Positions 1 to 5,560 of a stretch of 5,560 bases of DNA are shown piece by piece. Each line of letters begins with the position of its first letter. Within the stretch, counting starts at the first letter, position 1. Where the stretch lies: contig JAGYMR010000194.1 in assembly GCA_018400515.1 (NCBI GenBank), positions 1-5,560 of the forward strand, given 5' to 3'. The DNA comes from Tangfeifania sp. GTDB lineage: Bacteria > Bacteroidota > Bacteroidia > Bacteroidales > Prolixibacteraceae. The position numbers and the translations under genes are program-made. The notes under the pieces are model-generated. The model worked only from the letters and a program-made list of their open reading frames with translations, was not told the DNA's origin and did not search any database.

Positions 1-25
1 AAATGTTTAATATTATTTTATTCTA

Positions 26-937
26 ATGAATGGACTGATTACAAACATTCAGCGCATGTCGATTCACGACGGTCCGGGAATCCGGTCGGTTATTTTTATG
101 AAGGGCTGTAACCTCCGGTGCAAATGGTGTCATAACCCGGAAACATTTGTGCCTGCACCTGAAGTGGAGTGGATCTCCGGAAAATGCATCCATTGCGGTG
201 TTTGTACCGAAGTATGCCGTTACGGTGCCTTGCAGATGGATGCCGGAATGGTACACTTTGATAAAGCGAAATGCACCGCCTGTTTCGAATGCATTCCCCA
301 CTGTTATCCCGAAGCCCTGCAAAAAATTGGCCGGGAGGTATCGCCCGAAGAGACGCTGGCTGAGATCCGGCAGGATTTTCCCTATTTCGAAGCGTCCGGC
401 GGAGGGGTGACCATCTCCGGCGGAGAGCCTATGCTGCAGCCGGGTTACGTGCGGCAGACCCTGGGGCTGTTCCAGGAGGCGGGGATTCATACGGCCCTGG
501 AGACCAACCTGACGGTTGCATGGGATCAATACGAGGCATTGTTGCCTTATACTGACCTGCTGATGGCTGATCTGAAGGTGGTGGACAGCGATATCCATAA
601 ACGGTGGACCGGCGCCGGCAACCGGAGAATTCTGGCGAATATTGACAGACTGGACCGGTCGGGAATCCCTTACCTGTTGAGAACCCCTGTTGTGCCGGGG
701 TTTAATCACACGGAGGAGCACATTGAAAAAATTGCGCGCCTGGTCGCCCGGCTGGAAAATATCCGGAAATTTGAACTGTTGCCTTTCCATCCGATGGCGG
801 ATACCAAGTACAAAAACCTGGGCATCGATAATCCTTTTCGCGATGTAAAGGGCCTCACCCCGGAGGATCTGAATGTTTATAAGCCAATTCTGAAAAAATA
901 TAACCTGATATACGATGGAAACGTTAACAAAATTTAA
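26..937 (+). CDS. Glycyl-radical enzyme activating protein (radical SAM, PFL-activase family)
   Basis: This protein is predicted to use S-adenosylmethionine and a reduced [4Fe-4S] cluster to abstract a hydrogen from the partner GRE's glycine, creating the stored glycyl radical in the cytoplasm. The 303-residue sequence has the HDGPGIR motif at 14-20 and the radical-SAM cluster motif CX3CX2C at Cys28, Cys32 and Cys35, followed by HNPE. Residues 54-93 form a two-cluster ferredoxin insert with two CX2CX2CX3C sets (Cys54/57/60/64 and Cys83/86/89/93). The SAM-binding GGEP is at 132-135. The ferredoxin insert is known from activases of non-PFL GREs (dehydratases, decarboxylases) and absent from the short PflA type, which fits the non-PFL partner encoded next. 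The start at 26 gives the usual family N-terminus only about 13 residues before HDGPGIR. No Shine-Dalgarno sequence is visible in the 25 AT-rich bases upstream. The 3' end overlaps the GRE gene by 23 bases. The family is certain; the substrate specificity of the partner is not encoded here. Confidence 0.96.
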   Translation: MNGLITNIQRMSIHDGPGIRSVIFMKGCNLRCKWCHNPETFVPAPEVEWISGKCIHCGVCTEVCRYGALQMDAGMVHFDKAKCTACFECIPHCYPEALQKIGREVSPEETLAEIRQDFPYFEASGGGVTISGGEPMLQPGYVRQTLGLFQEAGIHTALETNLTVAWDQYEALLPYTDLLMADLKVVDSDIHKRWTGAGNRRILANIDRLDRSGIPYLLRTPVVPGFNHTEEHIEKIARLVARLENIRKFELLPFHPMADTKYKNLGIDNPFRDVKGLTPEDLNVYKPILKKYNLIYDGNVNKI

Positions 938-3077
938 ATTTCAAGAAAGGATTGACAACCTTAAATCCAGAAAACTGGAACAGACCGAAGAAAAAATCCG
1001 GCGGGAAGGCTATCTGGATGAAGATGATTACGGCCGGATTGTGCCGCCTGAAGACTCCTGGAAAAGCATTCCGAACCATGAAGATGGCTCTTTTTACGGA
1101 CTGGAGGGGTGGACCGAAAACTTTTGCAACCTGATGGAGAACCACCCGGTGTATGTAGATCCTAACGATGCTTTTGCCGGCCGGTGGAGCTATTTTATGT
1201 CGCGGATGCGTTCCGGTAAATGGAATCCCGCTTACCCCTATGATCATCTGAAGCCCAACATTGAAAAGTACGACATTATCTGTGGCATTGGTGACGATGC
1301 CCACTTTGCCCCGGATTTCAGGATCGGACTGCGGCTGGGGTGGCAGGGATTGCTCGATAAGATCGACCGCTACCGGAAAATCAACCGTTCGGAAGAACAG
1401 ACCGCCTTTTACAATGCCCACGAACGGGCCATCAAAAGCATTCAGGTGTGGATCGAAAACCACATCCGGGCCATCCGTGAAATGATCCCCGGCGAAAAAG
1501 ATCCAGAAAAGGCAGAAAATCTGCGGGAAATGGCGGAGGTCAATGAAAATATCCTTTCAGCACCACCTTCCACCCTGCGGGAGGCCTGTCAGTGGATTAT
1601 CTGGTACCACCTCGCTTCACGGACCTATAACCGGGACGGCGCCGGCGGACAAATTGATGCCCTGCTGCAGCCTTACTATGAAAAGGATCTGGCAGAAGGG
1701 CGCATTGATCATGATAAAGCGGTCTGGTATCTGGCCAGTTTCCTGATCAATGATCCCATTTACTGGCAGCTGGGAGGCCCGGATGAAGAAGGTATTGACC
1801 AGGCGTCCGATATCTCCTTTCTGATCCTGGAGGCCGGGGAGAAGATCAACACGTCGCTGAACATCACCATCCGGGTGCATGACGGCATGAATGAAGCCCT
1901 TTTTAAACGGGGCATTGAGTGCCTGATCCGGAATAAAAACGGGTGGCCCCGCTTTTCGGGAGATAAAGCCCTTGTGGAGGGGTTCATGAAAAACGGTTTT
2001 GATGCCGCCACGGCGCGTCAGCGCATCGCTGTCGGGTGTAACTGGATGTCGCTTCCCGGACTGGAGTATACCATGAATGACCTGGTGAAGGTGAACATGG
2101 CTAAAGTTTTTGAGGTGGCATATTACGAGATGATGGCGGATGAATCATCTGAAAAATCCACTGCGGTGCTGTGGAATAAATTCTCAGATCATCTGAAGGT
2201 GGCGGTAAAAACTGCGGCAGACAGCATCCGGCACCATCTGAAATACCAAAAATACAATGAACCGGAATTGATCCTGAACCTGCTGAGCCACGGCCCCCTG
2301 GAGAAAGGGCTCGACGTGGTGGACGGCGGGGCGGAATATTATAACCTGGCCATCGACGGGGCCGGACTGGCCATTGTTGCCGATTCGCTGGCCGCCCTGC
2401 AGCAACGTGTTGAAGCGGAAAAGAAACTGGGCTGGGAGGAGATCCATTACCAGGTGGTTTCCGACTTTGAAGAAGCGGAAGGTGAACGGATCCGGCAATT
2501 GATGAAAAACAGTGCCCGCTACGGATCGGGTGAATCGATCGCGGATGACTGGGCCGACAGGATCAAAAACCTTTTCACCTCACTGGTCCGGAACGAGTCA
2601 GAACCGGAACGAAAACAGCTGTTTATTCCCGGATTCTTCTCCTGGGCCAATACGGTTGGATTTGGAAAAACGATCGGGGCTACCCCGAACGGACGTAAAA
2701 GCCGGATGCCCATCTCCCACGGAGCCAATCCTAACCCCGGTTTTGCCAATGATGCCGCTTCGCTTGCCCTGGCTAACAGCATTGCCCGCATTCAGCCCGG
2801 GTATGGAAATACCGCCCCCATGCAGTGGGAACTGGATCCGGGCCTGGCCCGGCAGGAACATGCTGACCTGATCGGTTCGATCATTAAAACCCATTTTAAG
2901 CTGGGAGGAACCCTGATCAATGTGAATATTATGGATAAGGAGAAGGTGCTGGAAGCACATGCCGATCCGTCCAAATACCCGGAGCTGGTGGTCAGGGTCA
3001 CCGGATTTACGGCCTATTTTTCCATGTTGTCGCCTGAATTCCGCCAACTGGTGGTAGACCGGATCCTTGAAAGTTAG
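915..3077 (+). CDS. Glycyl radical enzyme, pyruvate formate-lyase superfamily, unassigned subclass
   Basis: This is a 720-residue GRE that needs the upstream activase. The N-terminal PFL-type domain spans roughly 1-570 and the C-terminal glycine-radical domain roughly 580-720. Gly697, in RVTGF near the C-terminus, is the predicted radical site. Cys375 (TGT at 2037-2039) is the predicted thiyl residue. Family landmarks include DGGAEYYN (469-476), the GLAIVADSLAAL segment (484-495) and YPELVVRVTGF (688-698). The length is near that of PFL and somewhat shorter than many dehydratase GREs. The active-site loop reads VGCNWMSLPG. It has no adjacent Cys pair as in PFL. Asn376-Trp377 replace the Val-Glu that follows the cysteine in the choline lyase, glycerol dehydratase, hydroxyproline dehydratase and hydroxyphenylacetate decarboxylase groups. 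The substrate is therefore unknown. The adjacent sugar-porter gene suggests a carbohydrate or polyol, as inference only. The start at 915 overlaps the activase stop, and no clear Shine-Dalgarno sequence precedes it. Automated pipelines would probably call it formate C-acetyltransferase, which the active site does not support. Confidence 0.95.
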   Translation: METLTKFKFQERIDNLKSRKLEQTEEKIRREGYLDEDDYGRIVPPEDSWKSIPNHEDGSFYGLEGWTENFCNLMENHPVYVDPNDAFAGRWSYFMSRMRSGKWNPAYPYDHLKPNIEKYDIICGIGDDAHFAPDFRIGLRLGWQGLLDKIDRYRKINRSEEQTAFYNAHERAIKSIQVWIENHIRAIREMIPGEKDPEKAENLREMAEVNENILSAPPSTLREACQWIIWYHLASRTYNRDGAGGQIDALLQPYYEKDLAEGRIDHDKAVWYLASFLINDPIYWQLGGPDEEGIDQASDISFLILEAGEKINTSLNITIRVHDGMNEALFKRGIECLIRNKNGWPRFSGDKALVEGFMKNGFDAATARQRIAVGCNWMSLPGLEYTMNDLVKVNMAKVFEVAYYEMMADESSEKSTAVLWNKFSDHLKVAVKTAADSIRHHLKYQKYNEPELILNLLSHGPLEKGLDVVDGGAEYYNLAIDGAGLAIVADSLAALQQRVEAEKKLGWEEIHYQVVSDFEEAEGERIRQLMKNSARYGSGESIADDWADRIKNLFTSLVRNESEPERKQLFIPGFFSWANTVGFGKTIGATPNGRKSRMPISHGANPNPGFANDAASLALANSIARIQPGYGNTAPMQWELDPGLARQEHADLIGSIIKTHFKLGGTLINVNIMDKEKVLEAHADPSKYPELVVRVTGFTAYFSMLSPEFRQLVVDRILES

Positions 3078-3080
3078 CTT

Positions 3081-4454
3081 ATGGGCAATAAAAATGCATT
3101 TTTTTACATCTTTATTACCCTGGCTGCAGCGCTGGGTGGGTTTCTTTTTGGCTACGATACGGCGGTTATCTCCGGTACGATCGGTTTTGTAAAGGATAAA
3201 TTTGCTCTGGACACCGTCATGGAAGGGTGGTTTGTCAGTTCGGGCCTGGTCGGCTGCATCCTGGGTGTGGCGGTTTCCGGGGAATTATCGGATCGCTTCG
3301 GAAGAAAAAAGGCGCTGATCATCTCGGGGTTGCTTTTTTTTATTTCAGCGATCGGTTGTGCGCTGTCCATGACGCATACCGAACTGATCATTTACCGGCT
3401 GGTGGGAGGAATCGGGGTCGGCGTGGCCTCCATGTTATCCCCGCTCTACATTTCAGAGGTCTCCCCGGCAAAGATCCGGGGACGAATGGTCGCGCTTTAC
3501 CAGTTTGCCATTACCATCGGCATATTGAGTGCCTATTTTGCCAATGCACTATTGCTTCAGCTGGCCGGGGAGATCAGCACCGGGCATGCACTGCTGCAAA
3601 AAATATTTGTGAATGAGGTGTGGCGCGCCATGTTCGGTTTTGAGACATTTCCGGCATTGCTGTTTTTTGTCTCCATGTTTTTTGTTCCCGAGAGTCCCCG
3701 GTGGTTCGCCGCCAAAGGCAAAACCCACCGGGCAGAAAAGGTGCTGGTCCGGATTGCCGGAAAAAACCGGGCCCGAACAGCCCTGGCAGAAATCAATTCA
3801 GGCATCTCCCGGGAAGGAAACGAATCATGGAACCTGCTGTTCCGCCGCGGGATCATGGTGATCCTTGTCGCCGGTATTTTGCTGGCCCTGCTTTCACAGT
3901 TCACCGGAATTAATGCCATTATCTATTATGGTCCCCGGATTATGGAAGAGGCAGGACTTCAGCTCAGTGAGGCGCTGGGCGGCCAGGTCATTATCGGAAT
4001 GGTCAACGTTTTCGCCACCATTTTCGCTATCTGGAAAATTGATAAATACGGCAGGAAAGGACTGATGAACGGAGGGGTTACCGGAATGGGCATCTCCCTG
4101 GTTATTATCGGGATACTGTTCCTGTTGCAAATGACCAGCGGTTTTCTGATCCTCTTCTTTATCCTGACATTCATTGCCTCTTTTGCCATTGGTTACGGCC
4201 CGGTGATCTGGGTATTGCTCTCCGAAATCTATCCGACCAAAGTGCGGGGCAGGGCCATGTCCATGGCCACGCTCTCTTTGTGGATCGGAACGGCGATTAT
4301 CGGACAGGTGGTGCCCTGGATGCTGGAAACCCTGACCCCTGCAGGAACCTTTTTTGTCTTTGCCCTCTGTTGCCTGCCTGTCCCTTTTATTCTGAAAAAG
4401 ATACCGGAAACAAAGGGCTTGTCGCTGGAAGATATTGAAAAAGCGTGGCTGTAA
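3081..4454 (+). CDS. MFS sugar-porter family transporter (XylE/GalP/IolT-like)
   Basis: This is a 457-residue inner-membrane transporter, probably a proton symporter for a sugar or cyclic polyol, with about twelve hydrophobic segments. Sugar-porter signatures appear in order: GFLFGYDTAVISG in TM1 (20-32), the loop motif SDRFGRKK (70-77), YRLVGGIGVGVAS (105-117), SEVSPAKIRG (125-134), PESPRW (203-208), QFTGINAIIYYGPRI in TM7 (273-287), DKYGRK (321-326), GYGPVIWVLLSEIYP with RG (371-390), and PETKGLSLEDIE near the C-terminus (442-453). Compared by eye with E. coli XylE, the sugar-contacting residues Gln168, Gln289, Asn294 and Trp392 correspond to Gln141, Gln273, Asn278 and Trp377. XylE Gln288 and Gln415 appear to be Ser272 and Leu400, so the ligand is probably not xylose. 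The gene starts 3 bases after the GRE stop codon, which implies co-transcription and a transport role for the GRE pathway. The family is secure; the substrate is not. Confidence 0.94.
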   Translation: MGNKNAFFYIFITLAAALGGFLFGYDTAVISGTIGFVKDKFALDTVMEGWFVSSGLVGCILGVAVSGELSDRFGRKKALIISGLLFFISAIGCALSMTHTELIIYRLVGGIGVGVASMLSPLYISEVSPAKIRGRMVALYQFAITIGILSAYFANALLLQLAGEISTGHALLQKIFVNEVWRAMFGFETFPALLFFVSMFFVPESPRWFAAKGKTHRAEKVLVRIAGKNRARTALAEINSGISREGNESWNLLFRRGIMVILVAGILLALLSQFTGINAIIYYGPRIMEEAGLQLSEALGGQVIIGMVNVFATIFAIWKIDKYGRKGLMNGGVTGMGISLVIIGILFLLQMTSGFLILFFILTFIASFAIGYGPVIWVLLSEIYPTKVRGRAMSMATLSLWIGTAIIGQVVPWMLETLTPAGTFFVFALCCLPVPFILKKIPETKGLSLEDIEKAWL

Positions 4455-4477
4455 AAGACCCGACAGCAGGTTCCGGT

Positions 4478-5356
4478 TCAGAGTACATTCCGGGTTCCGT
4501 TAAAATTTTGCCTGAATTCGCTGGGGGTACAGCGTTGTTTATTCCGGAAAATCCGGTTGAAGTTGGAGACGTTGTTAAATCCGCATTCGTAACATATCTC
4601 CGTGATGCTTTTGTTGGTCTCGATCAGCGACCGGGTGGCCATCCCGATCCGGATTTCATTGACAAAGTCAACAAATGATTTGCCGGTTCGCTGCTTGATC
4701 AGCCGGCTGAACGAAACCACCGACATGCAGACAAGTTGGGCAGCATCTTCAACTTTCAGCTTTTTGGTGTAGTTCTCCAGAATGTAATTGTATACCGTTT
4801 CTATCCGTTCGCTGTTGTGAAAATCGCTTTTCCGCAAAAAAGTCACATTTGATAAAAATTGCTGATCCCTCGATATGGCCAGGTTGTATAACAGCGATTG
4901 AAACTCCAGAAAATTGTCAAAACCGCTTTTCTCCCCGAGTCGAAGTAATTGGGGCTCCAGCTGCTGCCGGGTCTCCTCCGAAAAAAGAATGCCCCGGCGG
5001 GCATTGTTCAGTAATTTTTGAATGGGGCGGAGAATATTCCGGTTCAGTAAGGCATTGCTGAACAATTCGGGGGGGAACTGGATGGTTACTTCGTGAATGG
5101 TCTGCTGAAGATCATTGTGGTAGTTTTCCCAGCCATGATAAAGGTTGGGGCCGGTCATAACCAACTCCTTTTCTTCAATCTCCCCGATGTGATCCCCTGC
5201 AACTCTTTTGGCTCCGGTTCCATTTGAAATGTAATTGATTTCAAATTCCGGGTGAAAATGGATCGGAAATGAAAACCCTTTTCTTTTCCGGTTAAATACC
5301 AAAAAACAGTCGGTCTCCTGCAAAGGGGTAATCTCCCGGTGAATCTCGTTTTTCAT
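4478..5356 (-). CDS. AraC-family transcriptional regulator (cupin sensor plus C-terminal HTH)
   Basis: This is a 292-residue regulator in the typical AraC length range. Residues about 28-90 form an AraC-type cupin ligand-binding domain, with HFHPEFEI at 33-40 (His33, His35 and Glu37 recall the cupin HxHxxxE pattern), Gly46/Gly48 and His74. Residues about 184-285 form the double helix-turn-helix domain. The first HTH is around AAQLVCMSVVSFSRLIK (205-221). The second is around ITEICYECGFNNVSNFNRIF (251-270), followed by the family signature TPSEFR (277-282). An in-frame TTG at 5399-5401 would add 15 hydrophobic residues. I prefer the ATG at 5354-5356 because a candidate promoter -7 element (5390-5397) lies within that extension and because most of the family begins shortly before the cupin. 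The gene is convergent with the transporter, with 23 bases between stops and no strong terminator hairpin. It probably controls the neighbouring operon in response to its substrate; that is inference from position. Confidence 0.93.
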   Translation of the reverse strand: MKNEIHREITPLQETDCFLVFNRKRKGFSFPIHFHPEFEINYISNGTGAKRVAGDHIGEIEEKELVMTGPNLYHGWENYHNDLQQTIHEVTIQFPPELFSNALLNRNILRPIQKLLNNARRGILFSEETRQQLEPQLLRLGEKSGFDNFLEFQSLLYNLAISRDQQFLSNVTFLRKSDFHNSERIETVYNYILENYTKKLKVEDAAQLVCMSVVSFSRLIKQRTGKSFVDFVNEIRIGMATRSLIETNKSITEICYECGFNNVSNFNRIFRNKQRCTPSEFRQNFNGTRNVL

Positions 5357-5389
5357 GAAATGGTTTAAAATATTAAAAGCGATATGAAA

Positions 5390-5397
5390 CAAAAGTA
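5390..5397 (-). promoter_or_regulatory. Candidate Bacteroidota-type promoter -7 element for the AraC-family gene
   Basis: On the minus strand these bases read TACTTTTG, an exact match to the Bacteroidota -7 consensus TAnnTTTG. It lies 33 bases upstream of the ATG at 5356, leaving a leader of roughly 25-30 bases. The matching -33 TTTG is not found at the expected distance, so the promoter is only half supported. If real, it rules out the upstream TTG start at 5401, which would lie above the transcription start. Confidence 0.5.
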
Positions 5398-5407
5398 TCA
5401 ATAAAAT

Positions 5408-5420
5408 ATGAAATTTTCAT
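5408..5420. repeat. 13-base palindrome, possible operator upstream of the AraC-family gene
   Basis: ATGAAA and TTTCAT flank a single central T, making a perfect inverted repeat. It lies about 10 bases upstream of the candidate -7 element, where a regulator could overlap the promoter. The same ATGAAA hexamer recurs at 5384-5389 and at 5355-5360; the latter is part of the 10-base palindrome TTTCATGAAA (5351-5360) over the start codon. The region is AT-rich, so chance is a real alternative. Confidence 0.35.
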
Positions 5421-5444
5421 CCATTTTGTATCCTTTTTTTAGGC

Positions 5445-5467
5445 GGTTTTTCCGGAGGTGAAAAACC
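5445..5467. repeat. Perfect 8-bp inverted repeat (hairpin) in the intergenic region
   Basis: GGTTTTTC (5445-5452) and GAAAAACC (5460-5467) pair perfectly around a 7-base loop, CGGAGGT. No T-run follows on the plus strand. On the minus strand the stem is followed by an A-rich stretch rather than T-rich, so it does not look like an intrinsic terminator in either direction. It may be a protein-binding inverted repeat or a leader RNA hairpin of a gene to the right, outside the window. Confidence 0.45.
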
Positions 5468-5560
5468 CTGATTTCTCCGTTCATTGTTTTGAAAAAAGGT
5501 GGTGTTGTGGTGTTAATGTATTGTTTTCCAGTAAAATAAATGCTATTGATTTTTGATGCT

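Follow-up and report, generated by a model that had tools for sequence, protein, structure and literature searches.

What does a glycyl radical enzyme (GRE) do when a tryptophan occupies the place at which the eliminases of its superfamily carry a catalytic glutamate? The question is raised by a 720-residue GRE encoded at 915..3077 on the forward strand of a 5560-base stretch of Tangfeifania sp. DNA (GenBank assembly GCA_018400515.1, contig JAGYMR010000194.1, positions 1 to 5,560), which was analysed over its whole length and is called the window below. The Cys loop VGCNWMSLPGLEY of the translated protein lies at 2031..2069 (+), with the motif VGCNWMSLPG at 2031-2060, within the 2025..2070 first noted; codon 375 is tgt (2037-2039) and gives the predicted thiyl residue Cys375, codon 377 is tgg (2043-2045) and gives Trp377 in place of the glutamate of the Cys-X-Glu (CXE) motif, and Glu384 lies further along the loop. 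The radical site Gly697 (codon gga, 3003..3005, +) stands in the motif RVTGFTAYF, where it is preceded by Thr696 and not by Ala or Gly. The original prediction of a Cys375-Asn-Trp loop together with a normal radical glycine is borne out by these codons and by the motif within the Gly_radical domain (PF01228, 47.8 bits against a cut-off of 22.2, 2.3e-12); the PFL-like domain PF02901 is also found (332 bits, 8.3e-99). The protein has the features that define the superfamily, namely the Gly radical motif, a Cys on the Cys loop of the barrel and a cognate radical-SAM activase, and its structure model has the GRE fold and is closest to PflD and the diol dehydratases. From the gene context of its relatives we consider it probable that the enzyme acts on free, unphosphorylated D-mannose, and the chances seem about even for the whole explanation that we prefer, in which this family, called GCNW after its loop, acts on free D-mannose and the sister family GCQW likewise on L-fucose, both by a ring dehydration similar to that of HypD.

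The unusual loop belongs to a family and not to a single sequence. A protein search with the GRE gave 2488 significant matches, and all of the best 120 of these (67-100% identical) have the GCNW loop, which rules out a sequencing error or an isolated variant, and the conservation of the loop in close homologues, which had been proposed as a check, is confirmed to that extent. A scan of genome contigs gave 25 loci, 24 of them with close members (64-78% identical). By record title these belong to Bacteroidota, with one metagenome-assembled genome (MAG) labelled Chlorobiota, and their sources are marine, rumen and faecal among others; the bearers are found in Flammeovirga, Labilibaculum, Puteibacter, Carboxylicivirga and Bacteroidales. 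The remaining locus, in a Patescibacteria MAG (L025:8474-11430), has a 742-residue open reading frame over a GRE match of 31% identity, with a short activase-like gene adjoining. Among 296 genomes from the phylum of a Flammeovirga genome (G004), a close relative occurs only in G004 itself; the other matches spanning at least 500 residues are at most 29% identical and short C-terminal ones reach up to 35%, and on this showing GCNW is not a stray variant among GCVE homologues. Within one order the family is present in 4 of 393 genomes, the genome on which that search was centred included. The GCNW family is uncommon, scattered across several groups and well separated.

The order-level search of the same 393 genomes gave three other GREs, 26-27% identical over residues 49-717, in which the loop reads GCQW. 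With a GCQW protein as query, 569 significant matches were obtained, and among the best 120 of these GCQW is found by strict pattern in 118 and CQW by alignment in all 120; two of the listed names are those of spirochaetes, and no relative turned up in viral contigs scanned with the GCQW protein of a spirochaete. The two families are about 26% identical to each other. Conservation counts for both rest on the best 120 of 2488 (GCNW) and the best 120 of 569 (GCQW) matches and are therefore biased to close members, but across these 240 listed proteins the agreement is considerable. The equivalents of Cys375 and of His130 (1302..1304, +) are kept in all 240, and Trp at Cys+2 is shared together with eight further positions in at least 238: Arg236, Trp377, Glu451, His602 and Asn605 are common to all 240, Glu384, Gln637 and Glu639 to 239, and Thr696 to 238. 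Trp377, whose place at the position of the catalytic glutamate had been predicted and is now seen to be fixed in 120 + 120 listed proteins, aligns with Glu435 of glycerol dehydratase (a glycerol/1,2-propanediol dehydratase) and with Glu436 of HypD, while His130 aligns with His164 and His160 of these enzymes, respectively. The segment Arg236-Thr-Tyr-Asn-Arg240-Asp241 (1620..1637, +) lies on the substrate side and corresponds to His281-Ser282 in glycerol dehydratase and to Asp278 in HypD. His164, His281, Ser282 and Glu435 are what we take to be the catalytic residues of glycerol dehydratase, and their numbers match the alignment.

Four Glu-type GREs used for comparison (YbiW, PflD, L028, which is above the HypD NCBIfam cut-off, and L034) lack Arg236, Trp377, Glu451, His602, Glu639 and Thr696. 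They have Glu at Cys+2, Glu or Asp at 602 (Asn in L034) and Lys at 639, whereas the GCNW and GCQW proteins have Trp, His and Glu at these places, so that the charges are partly swapped. The four also differ from the two families at 384, 605 and 637, except that L034 shares the Glu of position 384 and the Asn of position 605. Relative to HypD, both families have a gap of about 21 residues in the segment from beta2 to beta3, which in eliminases packs on the substrate. This segment holds Ser334 in HypD and Phe at the same place in other eliminases (PMC7077986), and the PFL-like L034 type is likewise shorter there. The two families differ from each other at Cys+1 (Asn in GCNW, Gln in GCQW), at Cys+4 (Ser and Cys, respectively) and at residues 239-241, which are Asn239-Arg240-Asp241 in GCNW and Gly-His-Gly in GCQW; Asp241 is present in 118/120 listed GCNW and in 0/120 listed GCQW proteins. 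Position 389 is ambiguous, being Asp in both families in one alignment and Ser or Cys for GCQW in another. In a tree the two families are joined at 99/98 support, with a long-branch warning, and when one family at a time is omitted the remaining one joins PFL weakly (64/86, 58/83), outside the Glu-type GREs; since the branches are long, this placement is unsure. The shared signature residues are better evidence for the relation of GCNW and GCQW than the tree.

The suggestion that the enzyme may belong to an uncharacterised class is supported by these data, with the tree placement as unsure as stated, and by the absence of any NCBIfam equivalog or subfamily model that claims it. Placement in a characterised class was not seen, as the GRE is below every curated NCBIfam cut-off, the best being the subfamily TIGR01774 (255 bits against 678) and the best equivalog reaching 187 bits against 1000; one further GCNW protein and two GCQW proteins were scanned and reached no NCBIfam cut-off either. 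The HypD model gives 180 bits against 1100 and the PFL model TIGR01255 85 bits against 994. Compared with the CXE eliminases, the window GRE has CNW and not CXE, passes no equivalog cut-off and is short by the beta2-beta3 residues described above. With PFL it shares the glycyl radical domain and the lack of the CXE glutamate, but PFL has adjacent Cys-Cys (as in L055) and the window GRE a single Cys375 followed by Asn. PflD and YbiW, with GCVE and GCIE loops, are the nearest known GREs of sugars and are about 23-24% identical to it. According to PMC12441222 these two enzymes act on anhydrohexitol phosphates, opening the ring of 1,5-anhydromannitol-6-phosphate and 1,5-anhydroglucitol-6-phosphate, and their substrates are phosphates made by the phosphotransferase system, whereas the transporter of the GCNW loci is of the MFS type or a RhaT-like symporter. 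No GCNW or GCQW GRE, and no GRE acting on free mannose or fucose, was recognised in the open-access literature as judged by titles and abstract openings; the GCNW family may lie unlabelled in published GRE networks.

The proposed substrate comes from the neighbours of the GCNW genes, which were counted by tblastn over the 25 loci, some of which end a short way from the GRE. Of these loci, 19/25 have a cupin-like protein of about 140 residues; present too are one type of AraC regulator in 14/25 and a RhaT-like symporter in 9/25. The alpha-mannosidase families GH92 and GH47 (GH, glycoside hydrolase) occur in 8/25 and 7/25, one or the other in 15/25, while GH28 was found in four loci and a URO-D-family protein in two; all representatives checked by Pfam (one each of RhaT, GH47, GH28 and URO-D, two of GH92) were confirmed. 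GH47 was searched for in ten GRE genomes, and in five of them there is a strong copy that is the sole strong one of its genome and lies no more than about 2.1 kb from the GRE, but four of these five genomes are Flammeovirga and are therefore not independent. A sixth genome, G001, has a marginal GH47 match (E 4.5e-4) that is not near the GRE and was counted, with its neighbours, as over the cut-off. GH47 also adjoins the GRE in L016, L021 and L051 (Pfam), in Persicobacter psychrovividus and in F. kamogawensis, and in the last two species the small protein adjacent to the GRE is the cupin. For GH92, a gene lies within 15 kb of the GRE in 5/11 genomes compared to 0.71 expected under random placement; the probability of 0.0002 calculated on that assumption, with the 'observed' states hand-read from the genome search results, overstates the case since GH92 genes cluster.

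Other genes were noted in the same loci. A GH130 gene (L085:440-1417) and a sulfatase precede the GCNW GRE of F. kamogawensis by about 6 kb, on its upstream side, which is a further possible mannoside link. A URO-D/methyltransferase-like gene follows the GRE-cupin pair in L017 (12596-13627) and L021 (8916-9944), the two being 81% identical and the latter placed behind GH47. Inositol metabolism was considered and set aside, inositol-like genes having been noticed in L002 only, with no search for them in the other loci, as was hydrocarbon chemistry, which nothing noticed in the loci suggested, no dedicated search having been made. Xylose, a guess from the transporter only, was likewise rejected, as the XylE model gives the window porter 389 bits against 608 and the related loci have the RhaT-like symporter in 9/25 cases.

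The cupin gives a second line of evidence. In the protein (L002:12175-12591 and orthologues) the motifs TDE and WH are conserved; neither Pfam nor NCBIfam has a model that matches it, and its solved relative is 3d0j (E 5.6e-19), of unknown function. It was matched strongly in 2 of the 296 genomes, the GRE-bearing Flammeovirga and G144, with three more weak matches, and no GRE was matched in G144 at E 0.001. The cupin of G144 lies in a cluster (L061:2559-15643) with GH92, a UxuA-family protein, a 7-bladed lactonase, an SDR, a sugar porter, an RraA-like protein and GH38. Read from the family names, this cluster could be an oxidative, non-phosphorylated path for D-mannose through a dehydrogenase, a lactonase, a mannonate dehydratase and an aldolase. 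The cluster ties the cupin to mannose without a GRE. Mutarotation of mannose is a possible function of the cupin, as is a step on the product of the GRE. Mannose is the sugar indicated by three families of alpha-mannosidases (GH47, GH92 and GH38) and by the GRE-less cupin cluster alike.

Seven loci were read for the context of the GCQW family (L046, L047, L048, L074, L075, L076 and L077). Alpha-L-fucosidases are found in four of them (L046, L048, L074 and L077; GH29, and GH95 in L074), and the L-fucose:H+ symporter FucP is above its equivalog cut-off and no more than about 3 kb from the GRE in two (L046 and L076). A fucosidase or FucP is thus present in 5/7, which makes the GCQW family fit L-fucose. 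L047 has no GH29 match and its sugar porter is 74% identical to that of L048; the 5.5-kb contig L075 has neither fucosidase nor FucP, and the cupin is absent from all seven loci. The fucose isomerase PF07881 is present in five of the seven genomes and absent in two, and the class II aldolase family is found in five of the same seven. Directly behind the GCQW activase of L074 lies a gene of the PhyH type (2315-3298), a member of an oxygen-dependent family and as such odd near an oxygen-sensitive enzyme.

In the mechanism that we propose, alpha-mannosidases would release mannose and the sugar symporter would import it. The activase would generate the radical on Gly697, the radical would pass to Cys375, and the thiyl radical would abstract a hydrogen from the sugar ring. 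A radical at the anomeric carbon is stabilised by the ring oxygen and the hemiacetal hydroxyl, and the C2 hydroxyl of mannose is axial; our guess is abstraction at C1, beside the ring oxygen, followed by loss of the axial C2 hydroxyl. Trp377, in place of the CXE glutamate, may stack on the sugar, and His130, Asp241 or the conserved Glu384, Glu451 and Glu639 could help as acid or base. The conversion would be redox-neutral and its product may be a deoxy-sugar lactone. That the reaction is a dehydration of some kind is a guess, which we would put slightly short of an even chance. The CXE glutamate of most eliminases is believed to take the proton from the substrate hydroxyl, whereas in HypD it holds the leaving hydroxyl and Asp278 is the proposed acid/base, Glu436, His160 and Asp278 all being essential (PMC7077986). 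HypD is a precedent for the window GRE in that it dehydrates a ring with a base other than the CXE Glu, and its His160 has a counterpart in His130, but it has Glu436 where the window GRE has Trp377. HypD Asp278 aligns with Arg240, one residue off Asp241, and the equivalence of Asp278 and Asp241 is therefore unsure. With slightly less confidence still, GCNW and GCQW may be seen as a mechanistic branch of their own among the GREs, next to PFL and the CXE eliminases. It would work on the rings of free, unphosphorylated hexoses (D-mannose in one family, L-fucose in the other) without a Cys-loop glutamate and offer anaerobes a redox-neutral sugar entry that parallels the cupin-sharing SDR/lactonase/UxuA route.

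Several observations weigh against dehydration of free mannose. The 5560-base window, the ends of which are close, shows neither the cupin nor an alpha-mannosidase, 10/25 loci have no GH47 or GH92 in view and 6/25 no cupin, and the RhaT-like transporters suggest other sugars as well. The UxuA-family protein of L061 passes its Pfam cut-off but is below that of NCBIfam. Asp241 is absent from GCQW and so cannot serve both families as the base. HypD depends on Glu436 (PMC7077986), and its loss is therefore not obviously tolerated by a dehydration. Finally, no downstream enzyme for a deoxy-lactone is conserved beside the GRE in the 25 loci.

This lack of an enzyme for a deoxy product favours radical isomerisation or epimerisation of the free sugar, a rival that we nevertheless think unlikely. 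After hydrogen abstraction at C2 the ring would either open to give the ketose, fructose from mannose and fuculose from fucose, or regain the hydrogen from the opposite face, which would turn mannose into glucose, and the product would enter ordinary metabolism, for which no dedicated downstream enzyme is expected. PflD and YbiW do open a sugar ring radically (PMC12441222), and, also in favour of this reading, two of the seven GCQW genomes lack PF07881. However, these reactions need no radical and non-radical isomerases are cheaper, the other five GCQW genomes already have the fucose isomerase, and a second hydrogen donor is not conserved, Cys+4 being Cys in GCQW and Ser in GCNW. Slightly less probable is a substrate other than mannose, co-released with it or carried by a RhaT-type symporter, such as rhamnose or a methylated or acidic sugar. 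The RhaT-like transporter, GH28 (4/25) and the URO-D/methyltransferase-like gene (2/25) would suit such a sugar, and an acidic group could be bound by two conserved residues, Arg236 and Arg99, but GH47, GH92, GH38 and the cupin cluster without a GRE all point to mannose. Dehydration elsewhere on the free sugar we consider improbable. After abstraction at C2, loss of the anomeric hydroxyl would give 1,5-anhydrofructose, or loss of the C3 hydroxyl a 3-deoxy-hexosulose, which would feed into the ketodeoxygluconate route. Radical C-O cleavage at the ring is known for PflD, the nearest relative in structure (PMC12441222); an anomer-setting cupin would presumably matter for an anomeric leaving group, and the G144 cluster hints that this sugar can be degraded through mannonate and ketodeoxygluconate, but neither an anhydrofructose reductase nor an aldehyde dehydrogenase is conserved beside the GRE. 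A PFL-like C-C cleavage of a keto acid is in agreement with the source names of homologues (formate C-acetyltransferase), the missing CXE Glu and the weak joining of GCNW to PFL in the reduced trees (64/86), but with the single Cys and the low PFL score it is very improbable.

If action on free mannose by the preferred route is true, anaerobes would gain a redox-neutral radical entry into D-mannose catabolism, and Bacteroidota of gut, rumen and sea would attack free hexoses derived from glycans by a radical enzyme where an isomerase or kinase is usually taken to be the first step. It would also mean that GREs can do without the CXE glutamate in reactions of hydroxyl-bearing substrates. The GCNW/GCQW pair is a built-in comparison, with the same signature residues and different residues at Cys+1 and 239-241, which makes specificity testable. 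Several database entries are named 'formate C-acetyltransferase'; if our reading is right, the name is wrong for these genes and misleads predictions of which organisms make formate.

The window itself holds four genes. The activase (26..937, +) is a radical-SAM enzyme with Radical_SAM and Fer4 domains (TIGR02494, 318.9 bits against a cut-off of 174.35), and the GRE start sits within the last 23 bases of its gene. The MFS sugar porter (3081..4454, +; TIGR00879, 384.3 bits against 237.8) begins after a gap of 3 bases from the GRE stop, and this overlap and tight spacing suggest a single operon. The porter is 74% identical to the GRE-adjacent porter of L019, the one locus of the 25 with a porter of this type. 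On the opposite strand lies an AraC-family regulator (4478..5401, -; HTH_18, 3.8e-22) with a TTG start, an ATG at 5356 being possible. It shows 33% identity to the usual AraC of GCNW loci across just about 97 residues, and being so distant the regulator seems to have been exchanged.

A further PFL-like group of GREs with GCGE or GCTE loops was also met (L034, L035, L037 and L083:2926-5205), of which L034, L035 and L037 are without an equivalent of His130. The copy in L083, a Parabacteroides plasmid record, adjoins an N-acetylmannosamine-6-phosphate epimerase, a ROK protein and a sugar O-acetyltransferase.
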